Below, in pieces: positions 1 through 29,286 of a stretch of 29,318 nucleotides of DNA. The DNA lies in the IMG/VR virus record IMGVR_UViG_3300036835_000124, positions 1-29,318 of that record, one strand, 5' to 3'. Within the stretch, counting starts at the first letter, position 1, and each line of letters opens with the position of its first letter. The stretch comes from a virus. The position numbers and the translations under genes were made by a program. Under the pieces are notes generated by a model. That model was given only the letters and a program-made list of their open reading frames with translations, was not told the DNA's origin and searched no databases.

Positions 1-352
1 CGGGACGAAGGCTCCTAGGGGGGTCGCCCCGAGAAACGCGTTTGGTCAGTCCTCGCTGACTTCCGAGTGGTGATCGGTTGGCTTGCTCGCGTCGCGCCTC
101 GATGCTGGCCCGTTGTTCGCGTCTGGCTGACTTGTCGCTGCATCGTCGATGTTCGACGGTCCAGTTGTCTGGGTCGTGGGCGAGGTCGGGGCGTCGCCAT
201 CTGCTGACGATGTGGCCGACCACCCAGGTGTCGGTTTCGGTGACTGGTTGCCCGCATTGGTGGCAGGGTCCGGGGAGCAGGTTGGTGGTGGCGTAGGCGC
301 GGGCTCGGTCGACTGCTCGGCCGCTCCACCCGTCGGCGTTGCCGTTGCCCAT
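1..352 (-). CDS. HNH endonuclease, cut by the window edge
   Basis: This frame stays open from the start codon to base 1, so the 3' end is missing. The protein shows a C-x2-C pair (about residues 30 and 33), a GHI motif with the likely catalytic His47, then N63 and an EHRRC segment (H68, C71): the zinc-supported HNH fold of phage nucleases. In siphoviruses such a gene typically lies beside the terminase and assists DNA packaging at cos. Here it is the last minus-strand gene, and the terminase sits at the far right edge, consistent with a circular map. An in-frame stop just upstream limits the start to ATG at 352 or GTG at 355. Below base 46 another frame reads AFLGATPLGAFVP, which also looks coding, so a frameshift near the edge is possible. 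Confidence 0.8.
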   Translation of the reverse strand, partial: MGNGNADGWSGRAVDRARAYATTNLLPGPCHQCGQPVTETDTWVVGHIVSRWRRPDLAHDPDNWTVEHRRCSDKSARREQRASIEARREQANRSPLGSQRGLTKRVSRGDPPRSLRP

Positions 353-577
353 CACCTCATGGTCACGTCATCCTCTGCTTTGTCCACCGTTGGTCATCCA
401 CACGGTGACTAAGGCAGGGCGGTGACCACGTGGTTGTTCCTTGGTAGTTCTCTGGTTGTTCTATTACTGGGTGTCTGAGCAGATACCTCGAGGGTGTCTG
501 AGCAGATACCTCGAGGGTGTCTGAGGTGATACCTCGGCGCGGTGGTGGTGGCCGGTTATCCCCAGGCTGTGGATGGT
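353..577. other. Non-coding stretch holding the candidate origin
   Basis: These 225 bases separate the HNH gene from the preceding winged-helix gene. Bases 361 to 470 show no convincing gene and are less GC-rich than the flanks. Bases 471 to 539 are three tandem 23-bp repeats. The DnaA-box-like cluster starts at 556 and runs into the end of the neighbouring gene. A reading frame spanning 363 to 749 on the minus strand is arginine- and proline-rich, resembles no family and is treated as a shadow. Confidence 0.6.
471..539. repeat. Three tandem 23-bp iteron-like repeats
   Basis: Units lie at 471-493, 494-516 and 517-539. The first two are identical and begin GTGTCTGAGCAGATACCTCG; the third differs at a few positions and contains a perfect short palindrome, GAGGT-GAT-ACCTC. 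A unit of about 22 bp repeated head to tail next to DnaA boxes is the usual architecture of initiator-binding iterons in plasmids and phages. An operator array is the alternative. The repeat structure is certain; the role is inferred. Confidence 0.75.
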
Positions 578-601
578 TTATCCGAGTCCATCTGTGGATA
601 A
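556..601. promoter_or_regulatory. Cluster of four DnaA-box-like 9-mers (candidate origin)
   Basis: Four 9-mers related to TTATCCACA lie within 46 bases. TTATCCCCA is at 556-564 and TTATCCGAG at 578-586 on the plus strand. CCATCCACA (568-576) and a perfect TTATCCACA (593-601) are on the minus strand. The last two overlap the 3' end of the gene ending at 578. Beside three iterons, this strongly suggests a replication origin using host DnaA. Binding is inferred, not shown. Confidence 0.6.
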
Positions 602-907
602 GGCTGCGATGCCAACGAGGGTGATGGCGCGGGCCATCTGCTGGCGGCCTGAGCGGGCCCGTCGACGTTGGCCCGTGTCCTCGACCAGGCCAGCGTTGGC
701 CAGGTCGCTGCACCTCTTCCATGCCCCTTGGTCGGCGACGTAGCCGCATGCGTCTGCTGCCTCTTCGGCGGTGAGGTCGGCGTGGTCGGCGTAGGCCTTG
801 AGTAGCGCCCGGCGCATCGGGTCGGTGTGCTCGAGCTGGTGAGCAGCGGCGTGGCTGGTGTCGGGGTCACCACGGCGGGCATGCGTCCGCGGGTCGAGGT
901 CATCCAT
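578..907 (-). CDS. Winged-helix-like small DNA-binding protein
   Basis: The product is 109 residues. A GDPDTSHAAA segment near the N-terminus is followed by a helical stretch (LLKAYADHADLTAEEAADAC) and a recognition-helix-like segment (WKRCSDLANAGLVEDTG), then a basic tail. This pattern is common in small actinophage proteins with a MarR-like winged helix. The start ATG at 907 overlaps the stop of the previous gene. A longer reading from 991 would overlap that gene by 90 bases and is disfavoured. The gene ends inside the DnaA-box cluster, so it may act at the origin, but that is only positional inference. Confidence 0.75.
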   Translation of the reverse strand: MDDLDPRTHARRGDPDTSHAAAHQLEHTDPMRRALLKAYADHADLTAEEAADACGYVADQGAWKRCSDLANAGLVEDTGQRRRARSGRQQMARAITLVGIAALSTDGLG

Positions 908-1241
908 GGTTGACCAGCCAGACATTGAGCCGATACATGCGCGGGCCTCGGCTGCCGCCCCATCGACCCATCGGCGCGACCAGGCCAGCATCGACCAGCT
1001 CGGCGACAGCTCGAGCGGTGCGCAGCTTGGCGGCGTTGGTGTACTTGGGATAGCCGAGCCAGAACGTGGCGAGGTATTCCCAGCCGCCCCAGTAGCAGGC
1101 GGCTGGGGTGTCGGGCGGTTGGCCCTTGTCGTGCGCCACTGTCGCCATGCCTTGCAGACACAACCGTGCCGAGTCGCTCAGTCCTGGCAGCGAGCCCGCC
1201 CCTGTCAGGGCGGTGGTCTGCTGCACCAGTTGCCAGCCCAC
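900..1241 (-). CDS. Winged-helix protein, possible replication initiator
   Basis: About 113 residues from GTG at 1241, seven bases below the preceding stop. GTG at 1295 would add 18 residues and overlap the previous gene by 47 bases. After a segment typical of replication and transcription HTH proteins (SDSARLCLQGMATVAHDKG, about 22-40), the C-terminal half carries AAKLRTARAVAELVDAGLV and a wing-like GSRGPRMYRL. Lying immediately before the iterons and DnaA boxes, it is the best candidate here for an origin-binding initiator. No catalytic motif is visible. The winged-helix reading is moderately sure; the initiator role is inference. Confidence 0.7.
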   Translation of the reverse strand: MGWQLVQQTTALTGAGSLPGLSDSARLCLQGMATVAHDKGQPPDTPAACYWGGWEYLATFWLGYPKYTNAAKLRTARAVAELVDAGLVAPMGRWGGSRGPRMYRLNVWLVNHG

Positions 1242-5186: not shown

Positions 5187-5503
5187 CGGTCGGCCCGCCG
5201 CTCGGCGATGTCCTCGAGCTGGTTGGTGGTCAGCGCGATGCCGAGCCGTGCGGGCCTGTCGCCCTCGGGGATGGCGTCGGGGTTGTGCGTCAGCAGCTCA
5301 ACCACGCGGGCAATGTGCTCATCGCTCAGGTACGGCGACCGCCACACCTTGATGTGCGGCCAATCGCCGAACTTGCCCGTGGTGTGCCGCTGCACCGTCC
5401 TCGGCGTCAGGCCTCCGAGCTTGCGGCCCACTTCCTCGGCGTCGTAGTAGGTCACCTCCGCCAGCTCGCCGTCGGCGGTCATGGTCGGAATCCGAATAGA
5501 CAA
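5183..5503 (-). CDS. HTH protein at the head of the early operon
   Basis: The 106-residue product has a helix-turn-helix at about 19-45 (YYDAEEVGRKLGGLTPRTVQRH), like MerR/excisionase-type winged helices, followed by a strand-rich wing (WPHIKVWRSPYLSDEHI). The TTG start at 5503 is chosen because GGGAGG lies seven bases before it; the internal ATG at 5482 has no ribosome site. It is the first gene of the minus-strand early operon and faces the plus-strand zinc-protein operon. That is the position of a Cro-like regulator or a recombination directionality factor. Which of these it is cannot be decided. Confidence 0.75.
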   Translation of the reverse strand: MSIRIPTMTADGELAEVTYYDAEEVGRKLGGLTPRTVQRHTTGKFGDWPHIKVWRSPYLSDEHIARVVELLTHNPDAIPEGDRPARLGIALTTNQLEDIAERRADR

Positions 5504-5752
5504 CGCTGGGCCTCCCGTCCCCGAGTCTGATATCCGTTCACACTCGCACCGACACGCCCGACACGCTAGAACCTTGACCGCGACTTCTCAGCATGTTATC
5601 GGCGTTTACCGGCGTCGCATTCATATCGGGTGTTACAAACGGAATATCAGAGGTCACAAACACGCCCAGCGTCCGCTCCTCCTTCCCCAGGTTGTCCCGC
5701 GCTGGGTACTGTGCCCCTGCAACTCGGTGCCCCAACTCGGAAGGATGAACCG
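5504..5752. promoter_or_regulatory. Divergent promoter and operator region
   Basis: These 249 bases separate the early minus-strand operon from the plus-strand zinc-protein operon and must hold both promoters. The region is less GC-rich than its flanks. It contains two 18-bp direct repeats (5623-5640, 5644-5661), a possible third degenerate copy near 5596, and a 9-bp tandem repeat CCGACACGC at 5549-5566. A weak plus-strand promoter guess is TTGACC (5574-5579), a 17-base spacer, and TATCGG (5597-5602). A 65-codon minus-strand frame at 5538-5735 looks unlike a protein and is not called. Confidence 0.6.
5623..5661. repeat. Two 18-bp direct repeats at 21-bp spacing, likely operators
   Basis: Copies at 5623-5640 and 5644-5661 share 14 of 18 positions, with the conserved ends ATATC and ACAAAC. 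The 21-bp period is two helical turns, placing both copies on the same DNA face as expected for cooperative repressor binding. A weaker copy (TATCGG then TTACC) begins near 5597. Confidence 0.55.
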
Positions 5753-6106
5753 ATGACAGATGAGCTGGTGAGCCCCCAGCGGTTCGCAGAGGGCCTCAGC
5801 GACAAACAACTGCACTGTCGGGAACTCGGCCACAACTGGCGGCCTCTGGCAGCCTCTTGGGACCGTAAGGCTGGTGTGTTCGACAGGCGGCTGCGGTGCC
5901 CGACCTGCCGTACCGAGCGCGTCCAGGTGCTCAGCAAACGCGGCGAGGTGGTCAGCAACCGCTACGTCTACGCCAAGGGCTACTTGGCCTCGAGCATCGA
6001 TGAGCACCCCGGCATCAGCGCGATGCGCGCCACGTTCAGACTTGAGGCGGTGCACCGTTTCCTCGACAACGTGACGCAACTACCCATTGAGAACGGAGCA
6101 GCTTGA
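5753..6106 (+). CDS. Zinc-ribbon-like protein, plus-strand operon
   Basis: The 117-residue product has CRELGHNW (about residues 22-29) and CPTCRTE (about 49-55), a C-x4-H and C-x2-C set likely to bind zinc. A KRGEVVSNRYVYAKGYL segment follows. Similar small proteins occur in actinophages, usually without assigned function. GGAAGGA lies eight bases before the ATG, deciding this start over a longer frame from 5630. It is the first gene of the only plus-strand unit and overlaps the leader of the C2H2 gene. Its position opposite the early operon suggests a role in lysogeny control; this is inferred from layout only. Confidence 0.8.
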   Translation: MTDELVSPQRFAEGLSDKQLHCRELGHNWRPLAASWDRKAGVFDRRLRCPTCRTERVQVLSKRGEVVSNRYVYAKGYLASSIDEHPGISAMRATFRLEAVHRFLDNVTQLPIENGAA

Positions 6107-6108
6107 CG

Positions 6109-6591
6109 ATGGCGCAACGAATCCAAACGGTGTGTGACGTGCACTTGGCCCAGGGCCTAGACACAGAGGGTGAAACCTGGGAGGTGCTGGTGCGTAAGGC
6201 TGGCAGCCGCGCCCAGATGCGTGAGGTCGACCTCTGCGGCGAGTGCTCAGCCTCGCTCGAGGCGGTGGCGGCCTTTGCCGCCGAGCATGGTCGCACCCAG
6301 GCGGGTCCTCGGGCGCGCACGGCGGCGGCTGCCTTGACGGTGACGCCCACTGGCAAGGTGGCCTGCACTGTCGAGGGCTGCACCAGCATGGTCTCGGCTG
6401 GGAATCTGCCCAGGCACTTGCGCGATGTTCACGGCCAGCGGCAGGCCGCGCCCGATGTCTACCCGTGCCCAGATTGCGCCCAGATGTTTGCGCGTCCCCA
6501 GGGCCTGGGCGCTCACCGTTACCGAGCCCATGGCTACGAATCGCCCACGCGGGCAGAGCGCGCCGAGCGCGCCGAGCGTAAGGCCTCCTGA
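6109..6591 (+). CDS. C2H2 zinc-finger protein, candidate repressor
   Basis: The product is 160 residues. The N-terminal part has CDVH and CGEC pairs (about 9-12 and 43-46). Two C2H2 fingers follow: C-x4-C-x11-H-x4-H (ACTVEGC to DVHG) and a canonical C-x2-C-x12-H-x4-H (CPDC to RAHG). The tail is a short AER repeat. C2H2 fingers are uncommon in bacteria and usually bind DNA. ATG at 6109 follows GGAGC; TTG at 6103 overlapping the previous stop is an alternative. Divergent from the early operon and next to the integrase, it sits where a phage repressor is expected. DNA binding is likely; the repressor role is inference. Confidence 0.8.
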   Translation: MAQRIQTVCDVHLAQGLDTEGETWEVLVRKAGSRAQMREVDLCGECSASLEAVAAFAAEHGRTQAGPRARTAAAALTVTPTGKVACTVEGCTSMVSAGNLPRHLRDVHGQRQAAPDVYPCPDCAQMFARPQGLGAHRYRAHGYESPTRAERAERAERKAS

Positions 6592-6955: not shown

Positions 6956-8593
6956 CTAGACGGCCAATCTCCTGAACTCGAGCTGAACGTCAGAGGCTTG
7001 GATGAGGCGGCGTCTGCCGTGGTCGGCACCGCGCAGAGTGATGCTGCTAGCCAGAAAGGCCAGTACGGCCCTCTTGCGGCCCAGCGAGGCCTCGGCCCAG
7101 GCCTGAGCCGCCGAGCTGCCCGTCATGCCGTCCAGGGCAATCTCAGGGCGTCTAGCGCCCTCCCTGGCAGCCTCGAGGTCATCTGCAATGGCTTGGATGC
7201 GCGTGGCGTATCCGTTCATCACCTCGGCGATGCTGTCGGCGTCGAGGCCAGTGCCTGGCAGGGCGAGGGCCTGGGCGGTGCGTTCGGCCTTGAGCACCTC
7301 GAGCCGCTCTGTTAGCGCGGTCACCAGGTCGGCGGCGGTGTTGTCGACCAGGACGCCGCTGGCGTCGGTCTGCTCGAGCCTGGCAATGATGCGTTGCTCA
7401 ACCAGGGCGTCGACATCGTCAGCAGCTCGGTGCACGTGGCGGTTGGTTGCGCACGTGTAAACGCGGCGCTGGTCGCCCTTGCCTCGAGGCTTGCCCCTGA
7501 GCACCTCACCGCAATGTGCGCATCTGGCGAGGCCCGCCAGCAGGTAGACGCGGGCGTTGCTGGTCGAGGTGCGGCGCTTGGGGTCGGCCAGCAGGTGCTT
7601 GAGGCTGTCGTGGTCGGCGCGGTCGAGGATCGGCGGCCAGGCCGCGGCCCCGATGACCTTGGGTGAACCGTCGGCCTCTTTGCCGTGCACGCGCAGAGCT
7701 GCCAGGTGCGGCCTCAGGATCATGGTGCGGAGGTTCGGGCCTTTCCACTCGGTGACCAGGGCGGCGTGGTCGAGGTCGCGGGCAGGGTCGGCGTGCACGT
7801 AGACGGGGCCCGCGCCCTTGCGTTGCGGGCCCAGGGCGCGCACCACTTGGTCGCGGCAGGCCTTGACGTTGCAGGTGCCGTCAAAGCTCGGCGTGGGCAC
7901 GCCCTCGGTGTTCAGCCACTTGGCGGCACTGTGCAGGGTTTCGCCAGCCAGCAGCCTGGTGGCCAGGGCCCTAATCAGCTCGGCCTCTGACTCGCGCACT
8001 CGGGTCATGCCTGGCTCATATCCAAAGCGGCGGCGACCGCCGTGTGACACACCCATGTTTGCGGCCTCTTCCTTGGCTCGGCGCTGACGCTGGCTGGCGC
8101 GGGCCACTTCATACTCGGCGAGCAGCGCGTCTAGCTTGATGGTGAACACGTCGGTGGGGTTGCGCGGGTCGTAGGTGCGGCGGGTGGCTGTCTGAACGAT
8201 GACGGCCCCGCCCTGGCGGCAGGCGGCCAGCATGGCGTCGCTGGCCTCGGTGGTGCGGGCGGCTCGGTCGAGCAGCCAGAACAGGACGTGAGACACGCGT
8301 CCGCTGGCGACCAGCTCGAGCATGGCCAGCCACCGCTCGCGCTCTTTGGTGGCGTACTGGCTGGCGCTCCTGTCGTTGTCGGTGAAGTGCTCTGCAATCT
8401 CGCCGAGCCCCATGGCGTCGGCGGCCTTGATGGCGTCGGCGGCCTGGCGGTCGACGCCGCGACTCACTGGTGCGTCGACCAGCTCGTGGCGGGTGACCCT
8501 AAAGCGGCTGATGCGTTCATACGACACCACCAGCCGCTGGTCGGCCTCGGCCTTGCGGCGGGTGGTGGTGGGGGTTGCGGTGGCGGTGCTCAT
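6956..8593 (-). CDS. int: Large serine integrase
   Basis: The 545-residue product is a large serine recombinase catalysing attP x attB integration. The N-terminal catalytic domain has YERIS with the likely nucleophile Ser29 and Arg27, then HFTDNDRSAS and FWLLDRAART with the active-site arginines. A recombinase domain follows (GGRRRFGYE, then LATRLLAGETLHSAAKWLN and VPTPS). A zinc ribbon comes next (CAHCGEVLRG to YTCATNRH; the usual fourth cysteine seems to be His). After that come coiled-coil segments that normally bind the directionality factor. The ATG at 8593 overlaps the upstream lipoprotein stop; 60 extra codons to 8773 lie in that gene and are rejected. Confidence 0.92.
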   Translation of the reverse strand: MSTATATPTTTRRKAEADQRLVVSYERISRFRVTRHELVDAPVSRGVDRQAADAIKAADAMGLGEIAEHFTDNDRSASQYATKERERWLAMLELVASGRVSHVLFWLLDRAARTTEASDAMLAACRQGGAVIVQTATRRTYDPRNPTDVFTIKLDALLAEYEVARASQRQRRAKEEAANMGVSHGGRRRFGYEPGMTRVRESEAELIRALATRLLAGETLHSAAKWLNTEGVPTPSFDGTCNVKACRDQVVRALGPQRKGAGPVYVHADPARDLDHAALVTEWKGPNLRTMILRPHLAALRVHGKEADGSPKVIGAAAWPPILDRADHDSLKHLLADPKRRTSTSNARVYLLAGLARCAHCGEVLRGKPRGKGDQRRVYTCATNRHVHRAADDVDALVEQRIIARLEQTDASGVLVDNTAADLVTALTERLEVLKAERTAQALALPGTGLDADSIAEVMNGYATRIQAIADDLEAAREGARRPEIALDGMTGSSAAQAWAEASLGRKRAVLAFLASSITLRGADHGRRRLIQASDVQLEFRRLAV

Positions 8594-8817
8594 CGGTCTG
8601 CATTCCTCTGCATGTTGCGGGCGAACACGGCGGCGTAGTGGTCGACGCAGTCCAGGTAGGCCTTGGCGTCGAGGGCCTCGCCGACCAGCTCGGGGTCGGC
8701 ACAGAATCGTTCGGCGCGGTGCTGGGCCTTGGCTTGGATGGCTGGGCTGATGCTCGAGCCCTGATGCCCGCACGCGGCGAGCACCAGGGCCAGGGCGGCC
8801 AGGACGGCGGCCCTCAT
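8590..8817 (-). CDS. Small lipoprotein next to the integrase
   Basis: The 75-residue product starts MRAAVLAALALVLAACGHQG: a charged start, a hydrophobic core and an LAAC lipobox, so it should be exported and lipidated at Cys16. The mature part has two further cysteines (FCADPELVGEALDAKAYLDC) that could form a disulfide. Small lipoproteins expressed from prophages often block superinfection at the membrane, and its coupling to int by ATGA overlap fits expression during lysogeny. No family was recognised; the exclusion role is inference. Confidence 0.75.
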   Translation of the reverse strand: MRAAVLAALALVLAACGHQGSSISPAIQAKAQHRAERFCADPELVGEALDAKAYLDCVDHYAAVFARNMQRNADR

Positions 8818-10973: not shown

Positions 10974-11201
10974 TCATGGGCGGCGGCGACGCCAGAACGC
11001 CCAGCGCGGCGGCTCAATCCAGGTCGACGGTACGGCCCGCGCCAGCTCTTTGCTGGCCCGCCGAACCTTGCGCGGCGACCAGCCCAAGTGTGCGGCGACC
11101 TCTTTCACGGTGGTCTCATGCAGCCCCGTGGCGGCGTTGGGGCGGCCCCGCTCGAGCAGGGCTGACGCCAGCGCGCGCAGCTCGTCGTCGCTCAGCCTCA
11201 C
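10974..11201 (-). CDS. Small HTH DNA-binding protein
   Basis: The 75-residue product has LSDDELRALASALLERG followed by a helix-turn-helix at about 30-52 (TTVKEVAAHLGWSPRKVRRASKEL in outline) and a basic tail. The GTG start overlaps the stop of the XRE gene (GTGA), so the two regulators are coupled. It probably works in lysis-lysogeny or late control, but its target is unknown. Confidence 0.7.
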   Translation of the reverse strand: MRLSDDELRALASALLERGRPNAATGLHETTVKEVAAHLGWSPRKVRRASKELARAVPSTWIEPPRWAFWRRRRP

Positions 11202-11452
11202 TTGCCACCGCCCTCGGCTGCCCGTTGGGCGAACTGGTAGGCGGTCACCTCGGCCCAGAGCCTCTGGGCGTCCTGCTCGACCACCTGGGCGAACCTGGCT
11301 GTCGTGTCGGCACCCGGCAGGCTCTTGCCGTTCAGGATGCGTGAGAGCTGCTGGCGGCTGATGCCGATGCTGGCGGCGACCTGGTACTGGCGTAGGTGGC
11401 GGGCGAAGATGAGCCCGCGCCAGGTGAGCCCTGGGTGGTGGAGCTGCGGCAT
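11198..11452 (-). CDS. XRE-type HTH regulator
   Basis: The 84-residue product has a Cro/CI-type HTH at about 19-45: FARHLRQYQVAASIGIS, then RQQLSRILNGKSLP. A C-terminal helix follows that could dimerise. AGAGGA lies seven bases before ATG at 11452. It follows the holin genes after a 123-base gap, so it may have its own promoter there, although none is clear. It is the other candidate for the immunity repressor, but it lacks the dimerisation/cleavage domain of CI-like repressors. Family assignment is firm; the role is open. Confidence 0.8.
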   Translation of the reverse strand: MPQLHHPGLTWRGLIFARHLRQYQVAASIGISRQQLSRILNGKSLPGADTTARFAQVVEQDAQRLWAEVTAYQFAQRAAEGGGK

Positions 11453-11575
11453 GGCTGGTGTCCTCTTGTCAGCCCGAGGCTGGCTGTCACCACCACGTCG
11501 ACTGTTCGGCGTCCTGCTAGATGGTGCGACCGCTCCTCCCGTGTCGTCGGCACCAGCTCGGGGCAACTGGCTACC

Positions 11576-12068: not shown

Positions 12069-12809
12069 TCAGGCCTTGAGGGTCCAGAGGATGGCTGGGT
12101 GGTCCGACCCATAGTTGCCTTTGGTGACCACGGTGCCCTTGACGTTGTGTTGGATCGCGTAGTCGATGCCGCCGCTGCTCGGCGCGCTGATGGTGCCGCC
12201 AGCGGTCTGGGCGAGCGGTTTCGACGCCCACGCGAACGTCGCGCCAGGGCCACAGTTGTGATCGCCCAGGATGAGACACGGCGAGTGCCCGCCGATCCAC
12301 TTGCCCACGTTGTCGTAGGTCTCGCGGAACGCTGCCTGGTTTTTGTCCTTGCCCGCGGTGACGCGGTGGAAGGACATCACCCAGAGGCCATCACACTTGG
12401 CCCAGGTCCAGGTGCGGCCCTTGTGGCCGCCGCCCTGGGGCCCGACCCAGTGGGTGGTGGTGCGCAGCGTGTCCCAGCCGTTGGGGTCGCCCCGTTTCTT
12501 GCCTTTGTACTGGGCGGCCAGCGTCATCACGGGGTTGTCGGCGGCCTCTTCCCAATCGTTCTGGGCGTAGATGTGCCACTGGTTGCCGAACCGTTTGCGG
12601 AGGTCGCCCACGTACCCCTTGGCCTCTTGCAGACACACCACCGACGGGTTGGTGGCCTTGATGAGGTCGGCCAGCCCGTCGAGCACCGTCTGGTGGTTGC
12701 GGCCCACTTTCATGTTCCAAGACACCACCCGTTTGGTGCCGCCCGCGTACATGCCGCCCCCACCGCCGTTGTCCGGGTCTGGGTCCGGTTTCGGCGGTGA
12801 GGGCGTCAC
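12069..12809 (-). CDS. DNase I-like (EEP family) nuclease in the lysis cassette
   Basis: The 246-residue product carries the full endonuclease/exonuclease/phosphatase signature: WNMKVG (N32), CLQEAKG (E62), MSFHRV (H148), ILGDHNCGP (D183, N185), GIDYAI (D216) and GSDHPA (D236, H237). It should therefore be an active metal-dependent phosphodiesterase, probably acting on DNA. The GTG start overlaps the endolysin stop (GTGA). The N-terminus is a Pro/Asp/Gly-rich linker (about residues 2-24) as normally found between domains; ATG at residue 20 is an alternative start. No signal peptide is seen. The target is unknown: host chromosome degradation or clearing released DNA are guesses. Confidence 0.88.
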   Translation of the reverse strand: MTPSPPKPDPDPDNGGGGGMYAGGTKRVVSWNMKVGRNHQTVLDGLADLIKATNPSVVCLQEAKGYVGDLRKRFGNQWHIYAQNDWEEAADNPVMTLAAQYKGKKRGDPNGWDTLRTTTHWVGPQGGGHKGRTWTWAKCDGLWVMSFHRVTAGKDKNQAAFRETYDNVGKWIGGHSPCLILGDHNCGPGATFAWASKPLAQTAGGTISAPSSGGIDYAIQHNVKGTVVTKGNYGSDHPAILWTLKA

Positions 12810-27813: not shown

Positions 27814-29286
27814 TCAGAACACGGCGGCGACAGGCCGCGGCTGGCGGGCACGGCCCACCGCCCACACCGCAGCCTTGACGGCGTCGGCCCGATGCCGCGA
27901 CACCACCCGCGGGCCCTCGGGGCCCCGTTGGGTGCGCAGCTCGGCCACCTGGTCGGTCAGCAGCGGCGACCCGTCGTGCCTGAGCACGTCCTGGTCGATG
28001 AGCTGGCGCAGCTCGGTGGCGGTCTGGGTCATCCTCGAGCCGACCGCCTCGACCTGGTCGGCGAACGCCGGGTCAGCGGTCAATGTCTTGCCGACCAGCA
28101 CCGTGCCAGCAGAGGCGCTCAGGGCGGCCCTGGCGGCCTCGGGGACGTTCGGGTGGTCAGAGACACCAACCAGGACCCGCCAGCCGTCCAGAGGCCACGC
28201 CAGGGCCACACAGACGCCCTCTGAGTACCAGGACTCGACCGCGGCGACCAGCGGCGGCCCCGACGGCCTGGCCTCGACCTCGAGGTTCGCCCACTGGCTG
28301 CCCGACACCACCAGCGCGCCCACGGGCGACCGCCGCTTGCCGGGGGACGGCCACGCGTTGCCGTACTGGCTGACCACCGCCTGCAACGGGTCCGGGTCAT
28401 CGTCTTCGGCGTCGACCTCGCCGAGCCTGGCCCGCTCGAGCTTGCGGGCAATCATCCGAGCCCGCTGCGCAGACCAGTGCGGCGACGCCAGCCGCCACAC
28501 CTCCGGGTCGTCCAGGTCCGCATCGGGCAGCATCCCCCACCAGAGCAGCAGCGTGTCAGCCGACGCCGCCGAGCCGTCGGCAATCTCAGCCATGGCCGTC
28601 GACATGCGGCGACGCATCAGGCTGGTGGCCCGACGGTTCGCCGTCGAGGTCATCCAAAGCTGAGGTTTCGTCCGTTCCATCAGCGCTGGCTCGAGCCCGT
28701 CATCCACCGTCGACGGTTTCACGTTCCAAGCCTCATCGACCAACGCCAGCCCCGCCGGGTAGCCGTACACGCCCTCCTGGGAACGCACCAGCCACCTCGA
28801 GCCGTCGCGGGCGCTGATGGACTCTTTGCCGTTGCTCTTGAGCACGTGCCAGCCCAGGTGTGCATGGGCGTCGGCGTACGCCCAACCCTGGGCCCACACC
28901 TCGCGGCAGATCAGCAGGTCAGAGCCCGTGTGCAGCACCGTCTGCGGCTCACCGAACCAGTCCGCGTCAGCCATCCGATGCATGGCCGCCGCGAACATGC
29001 GGCGGCTCTTCCCCGACCGCCGCGGCGTCGACTCCACCACCGACGACCACACCAGCTCGCCCTCGGCGTCATGCTCATACTGCCGCCGCAACGCCAGCCG
29101 CTGCCACCACCGCAACCGCATCCCCAGGTTGCCCTCGATCCACCGTTCCGCCACATCCCCGTAGCTGCCCACCGCATCGACATGCGGCGGCGTCATCACC
29201 AACGGCCAACAGAACTCCGGCGGAGACTCCACCAGGTCGGCCAACCAGGGCACGGCATCGAGCGAGCCCGGATCGAACACGGGCAC
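27814..29286 (-). CDS. terL: Terminase large subunit
   Basis: The product is 490 residues or more. The N-terminal ATPase has a Walker A-like STPRRSGKS (about 86-94), a Walker B ALVDEAW (about 181-187) and the coupling motif MTSTAN (about 212-217). The C-terminal part has VAAVESWYSEG, which may hold the first acidic nuclease residue as Glu, and ends with ADAVKAAVWA typical of the nuclease tail. It cuts the concatemer and drives DNA into the prohead. The GTG at 29286 has AGGAAG about 13 bases upstream, but the frame is open to the window edge, so the true start may lie outside. No small terminase is visible; it may lie beyond the edge. Confidence 0.9.
   Translation of the reverse strand: MPVFDPGSLDAVPWLADLVESPPEFCWPLVMTPPHVDAVGSYGDVAERWIEGNLGMRLRWWQRLALRRQYEHDAEGELVWSSVVESTPRRSGKSRRMFAAAMHRMADADWFGEPQTVLHTGSDLLICREVWAQGWAYADAHAHLGWHVLKSNGKESISARDGSRWLVRSQEGVYGYPAGLALVDEAWNVKPSTVDDGLEPALMERTKPQLWMTSTANRRATSLMRRRMSTAMAEIADGSAASADTLLLWWGMLPDADLDDPEVWRLASPHWSAQRARMIARKLERARLGEVDAEDDDPDPLQAVVSQYGNAWPSPGKRRSPVGALVVSGSQWANLEVEARPSGPPLVAAVESWYSEGVCVALAWPLDGWRVLVGVSDHPNVPEAARAALSASAGTVLVGKTLTADPAFADQVEAVGSRMTQTATELRQLIDQDVLRHDGSPLLTDQVAELRTQRGPEGPRVVSRHRADAVKAAVWAVGRARQPRPVAAVF

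Follow-up and report, generated by a model that had tools for sequence, protein, structure and literature searches.

The window analysed here is a virus record of 29,318 bp with 69% GC (IMG/VR record IMGVR_UViG_3300036835_000124), and the element in question is a candidate phage replication origin near its left end. The early genes are transcribed leftward in the order excisionase-like gene, exonuclease, RecT, Hjc-like resolvase, small genes, WH2, WH1, a 225-bp gap and an HNH endonuclease gene. WH2 (900–1241, minus strand) encodes a winged-helix (WH) protein of 113 amino acids; WH1 (578–907, minus strand) encodes a winged-helix-like protein of 109 amino acids (phrog_18663/phrog_1123) and lies between WH2 and the gap, which holds an array of tandem repeats (iterons). 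An earlier reading of the same DNA (hereafter, the original prediction) took the region for a plasmid-like theta origin of an integrating phage with two winged-helix genes upstream; the two genes are indeed upstream in the direction of transcription.

Three tandem 23-bp units fall at 469–537 (469–491, 492–514 and 515–537, with identities of 100%, 100% and 87%), so that the three repeats, two of them identical, that had been reported before were recovered. The score of this array in Tandem Repeats Finder (TRF), 122, was the highest among all arrays in the window. Each unit carries an imperfect 18-bp dyad of the form GGTRTC-N6-GAYACC, namely GGTGTCTGAGCAGATACC in iterons 1 and 2 (470–487 and 493–510, arms 7/8 complementary in both) and a diverged dyad GGTGTCTGAGGTGATACC, containing GAGGTGATACCTC, in iteron 3 (516–533, arms 5/5). 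In the window the 18-mer GGTGTCTGAGCAGATACC is confined to the array even with three mismatches allowed (three matches vs 0.03 expected). Next to the iterons TRF found a T-rich 11-mer tandem repeat, TGGTTGTTCTC in 2.9 copies (431–462), a candidate unwinding tract. Both the dyad symmetry and the T-rich repeat had been overlooked in the original prediction. Iterons of phage lambda are inverted repeats bound by dimers of the O protein beside an AT-rich tract (PMC5043065, PMC7466680), while those of plasmids are for the most part direct repeats to which monomers bind (PMC5043065); since each unit of the array carries an 18-bp dyad, we assign these iterons to the lambda type.

DnaA boxes were defined by at most one mismatch to TTRTCCACA. 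The window has seven, four of them inside 222 bp, with two on either side of the array: TTGTCCACC (380–388, plus strand), a distal box 81 bp past the array as in two of the relatives described below (L022 and L028); TCATCCACA (394–402, plus strand, one mismatch); TTATCCCCA (556–564, plus strand, one mismatch), the proximal box, kept in L022; and the perfect box TTATCCACA (593–601, minus strand), which falls within the 3′ end of WH1. Among 300 first-order Markov sequences that keep the dinucleotide composition of the window, the best 250-bp cluster reached three boxes twice and four boxes never. The four boxes originally proposed at 556–601 were thus half right: two have at most one mismatch, while CCATCCACA (568–576, minus strand) is a weak box with two mismatches and a TTTATCCGA-like one fails; the two boxes at 380–402, on the other side of the array, had been missed. 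The distance from the array to the first box, formerly given as 17 bases, is 18 bases.

Relatives were obtained in searches with the terminase large subunit (27814–29286, minus strand), with RecT and with an alignment of WH2; viral contigs scanned with WH1 or HNH as single queries gave no relatives. Six relatives, distant ones included (L022, L011, L013, L023, L028 and L038), share one plan with the window: a box, three to four dyads at 23 bp, an AT-rich tract, a second box and then the HNH and terminase genes. The closest, L022 (30,329 bp, RecT 71% identical), aligns with the window through the gap without loss of register and has a 3-copy array of different sequence in the same place; it keeps the boxes, the TAATAGA and AGAACAACCA motifs, the AT-rich tract, the distal box and the spacing. 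Both arms of its dyads are altered jointly relative to the window (GGTATC..GACACC to CCTGAC..GTCAGG) and are perfect, 7/7 and 8/8. The other five have three to four copies at 23 bp with unrelated iteron letters, directly behind a relative of WH2 (29–46% identical). Dyads are clear in the relatives, and six of the seven loci have dyad-symmetric repeats. The proximal box lies 27–43 bp ahead of the array in transcription order and the distal box 81, 81, 84, 95, 81 and 85 bp past it, each in the same orientation in 6/7 loci. At the array end sits the lowest-GC 40-mer (6/7 loci; 42% in the window vs 69% for its genome), and AGAACAAC-type repeats occupy the position of the T-rich tract in L022, L011 and L023.

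Period-23 arrays in 44 terminase-group loci were found solely upstream of the terminase gene (three in 222 kb), with none in 342 kb downstream. Most terminase-group prophages lacking WH2 also lack the array, which argues that the array goes with the WH initiator and not with the terminase. When a hidden Markov model of WH2 was run over all open reading frames (ORFs) of about 120 loci, L038 was the only match beyond the seeds and records from the same contigs, and it likewise has a 23-bp array.

A further comparison used homology only. With the WH2 profile, 397 genomes from the order to which Kribbella belongs yielded 11 new loci, picked blind to repeats. Over the 300 bases that follow the WH domain, periodicity of 21–25 bp was found at P < 0.05 in about seven of the 11 loci (775 control windows); combined by Fisher's method over the 11 loci, P = 1.2e-9, with structural-gene windows as controls and loci that are only partly independent. 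Paired boxes in the expected orientation occurred in 4/11 loci vs 0/549 control windows. Two loci, L122 and L131, show the complete plan. A class-wide sample added three more loci, L133–L135, that agree at least partly: L133 and L134 have arrays of about 24 bp, L133 and L135 a perfect distal box. Some of the loci from these searches adjoin phage genes (HNH and terminase in L140, RecT and exonuclease in L137). Repeats in close relatives, a comparison that the original prediction had put forward, are therefore present, and the arrangement is conserved in the seven loci and in most of the homology-only hits. The same layout recurs in numerous further viruses that infect soil actinobacteria.

The protein proposed to bind the origin is WH2. 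Its AlphaFold2 model is a confident winged-helix fold (pLDDT 85.8, pTM 0.81) with a recognition helix at residues 69–84, and the protein ends after the wing. Foldseek comparison with viral models returned phage helix-turn-helix and replication proteins, including replication protein O of Min27 (E = 4.6e-4, TM 0.62); a fold search of the PDB gave weak generic winged-helix matches at most. Between the window and L022, none of the nine residues at 67–75, the start of the recognition helix, is identical, vs about 73% identity elsewhere in the protein.

The locus shares several traits with the lambda origin and its O protein: iterons that are inverted repeats of roughly 18–19 bp, an adjacent AT-rich tract and a phage initiator of winged-helix type, predicted here. 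In three relatives a longer, full-length initiator-like protein replaces WH2 in the slot upstream of HNH/terminase (L030 6002–6793, L034 6194–6991, L108 4017–4805), with 15–22-bp repeats inside the gene as in lambda O. Hits to replication initiator families were obtained with the proteins of L034 (phrog_270, 4e-14) and L108 (phrog_4707, 4.6e-11) and none with that of L030. In L122, L125 and L128 the WH2-type gene itself extends through the repeats. The occupation of the slot by longer proteins suggests that origin modules are exchanged between related prophages, and the dyad-symmetric iterons together with these O-like initiators point to kinship with phage origins of the lambda O type. We infer that WH2 is an O-like initiator, close to the DNA-binding domain of O, whose C-terminal half has been lost. 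Unlike lambda, the window has an initiator consisting of the DNA-binding domain alone (113 amino acids), repeats that are non-coding and follow two WH genes, iterons that recur every 23 bp and are unrelated in sequence, and DnaA boxes flanking the array at fixed distances; PHROG scans of its proteins revealed no P-like helicase loader. As repeats within the gene and a C-terminal domain with its loader are both lacking, we regard the locus as a variant of the lambda origin rather than a member of that group.

Taken together, we read region 380–601 as a phage replication origin that would work in a lambda-like manner with host DnaA added, and we put the probability of this reading at roughly 0.8. 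The replication origin in an integrating phage, as originally predicted, is thus supported; its plasmid-like character is weakened by the dyad symmetry of the iterons. In the proposed mechanism WH2, probably as dimers, would bind the three inverted-repeat iterons, bend the DNA and strain the neighbouring T-rich tract; host DnaA at the boxes on both flanks would stabilise the opening and recruit the host helicase, and replication would presumably proceed in theta mode. Recruitment by DnaA is proposed because the phage seemingly has neither a loader nor a replicative helicase: PHROGs scans of 30 window proteins found no replicative polymerase, primase, helicase or loader, in agreement with the earlier statement that the window has no polymerase, helicase or primase.

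Several observations weigh against this reading. The dyad score of the window taken alone is marginal (P = 0.07), the iterons of L028 have no dyad, L023 has no DnaA box, and two of the homology-only loci (L126 and L130) show little of the plan and no clear array. WH2 of the window has no significant Pfam or PHROG match, and the best family match of its L022 counterpart reaches just E = 0.0014. The recognition helix of a candidate XRE repressor (11198–11566) likewise differs between the window and L022. A Mantel test of WH2 vs iteron similarity over 18 loci gave r = 0.23 (P = 0.004) for the recognition helix; the correlation was lost (P = 0.15) when close pairs were thinned to a single member, and for this reason we do not use it as evidence.

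The dyads could instead be operators, bound by a phage regulator such as this XRE protein, WH1 or WH2 and controlling transcription into HNH and the late genes in the style of lambda OR1–OR3, a reading that we consider improbable. The change in the XRE protein would agree with it. Three dyads of roughly 18 bp at 23-bp spacing would fit an operator cluster, and the region marks the boundary between the early genes on one side and HNH with the late genes on the other; however, the dyad is absent elsewhere in the window at three mismatches, the divergent 5503–5630 region included, and no sigma-70 promoter or terminator match was found at 300–700, a region in which an Rfam scan was also empty. Operators would account neither for DnaA boxes paired at set distances nor for the repeats inside the replication initiator genes of same-slot relatives.

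Which of the two WH proteins binds the iterons bears on a second alternative, which we rate as very unlikely: a plasmid-type iteron origin whose initiator, WH1 or a host protein, would bind as monomers to direct repeats. The WH1 gene adjoins the array, and the textbook plasmid origin combines direct repeats with DnaA boxes on their flanks; the iteron plasmids P1, R6K and pSC101 (PMC5043065) share tandem repeats, an adjacent AT-rich tract and flanking boxes with the window. The flanking boxes are its one plasmid-like trait. Its repeats are dyads, as in 6/7 loci, and its proposed initiator does not belong to the plasmid Rep proteins: WH2 has no Rep family match, and no WH2 relatives were found among 72,556 plasmids or 50,697 isolate phages. 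The predicted recognition helix of WH1, assigned by eye, is unchanged between the window and L022 though the iterons changed; since the iteron arms differ between the same two phages in which the WH2 helix differs, WH2 is the better candidate. WH1 lies between WH2 and the array only in the window and L022; it is not beside the arrays of L011, L013, L023, L028 and L038, where WH2 is always present. Relatives of WH1 in the Mycobacterium phages Pinnie and MOOREtheMARYer directly precede recE/recT, so that WH1 may belong with the recombination genes rather than with the origin. It is thus likely, on sequence grounds, that WH2 and not WH1 binds the iterons, which agrees with the original proposal of a small neighbouring winged-helix protein as initiator and favours the 113-residue one. 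We give hardly any credence to the idea that the repeats serve packaging or partition, or that they have no part in replication: the array lies <0.5 kb from both HNH and the end of the genome, but HNH, and another ORF in L011, separates it from that end, in other genomes arrays come after the WH2 domain with or without a terminase detected close by, family scans found no parA/parB-like protein, and the DnaA boxes would be unexplained.

The lambda-like origin with host DnaA was compared with two further systems. In cluster A mycobacteriophages, also actinobacteriophages, experimentally mapped prophage origins use a RepA of 320–350 amino acids or RNA, with no repeats found near repA in that study (PMC7157519); unlike the origin proposed here, these RepA/RNA-based origins serve prophage maintenance. 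The basal unwinding system through which DnaA acts on bacterial chromosomes consists of a DnaA box, a spacer of up to 16 bp and at least three NAN trios (PMC8287927). A CGCGCGCG-type tract lies between the distal DnaA box and the AT-rich tract, 5–15 bases from the box, in L011 (4470–4502), L013 (2395–2422) and L028 (3465–3490) and also in L122, L124, L133 and L135; it is absent from the window and L022. A DnaA box facing an AT-rich tract resembles the basal system, and in several relatives the intervening tract recalls its GC-rich spacer; unlike that system, the window has no GC tract. In alignments read by eye, a trio-like run is present in L133/L135 past a spacer of >16 bp, and none in the window is convincing.

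Replication starts of most actinobacterial phages are little mapped, and open PMC literature yielded only the RepA/RNA systems of cluster A. We suggest tentatively, at somewhat less than even odds, that the loci represent a class of origins that is widespread among actinobacterial phages and apparently undescribed, in which a lone winged-helix initiator would bind fast-changing inverted-repeat iterons and pass the opened DNA to host DnaA at two boxes at fixed distances, with no need for a phage helicase loader. The layout suggests a pared-down initiator relying on host DnaA in bacteria without DnaC-type loaders. Its sequence signature (a WH domain, a 21–25-bp dyad array and paired DnaA boxes) points to candidate origins within prophages from several actinobacteria. 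The iterons vary as the recognition helix does and would make a natural set for studies of initiator–origin co-evolution; the origins could also be turned into new replicons for hosts that are poor in genetic tools.

The contig probably represents a nearly complete linear genome with ends that meet between HNH and terminase, because the start of the terminase gene is 32 bases away from the right end, its best matches (L005–L007, 84% identical) start at that same position, and the HNH gene (2–352, minus strand), beyond the candidate origin, runs off the left end; terminase would then be the next gene across the joined ends. A serine integrase is encoded at 6956–8773. Terminase relatives number >200 in viral metagenome contigs, and actinobacterial genomes hold 13 prophage loci with one; at E 1e-10 the 50,697 isolate phage genomes contained no match, and the phage group defined by this terminase appears to have no cultured member in that collection. 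Near the lysis/tail region, a protein of 246 amino acids (12069–12809, minus strand) with motifs SWNMKVG..., GDHNCGP and GSDHPAI has no PHROG match and resembles, by eye, enzymes of the endonuclease/exonuclease/phosphatase fold. Only two genes, at 5630–6591 on the plus strand, clearly depart from leftward transcription; of these, the second encodes two C2H2-like zinc-finger motifs, and both are kept in L022 and L023.
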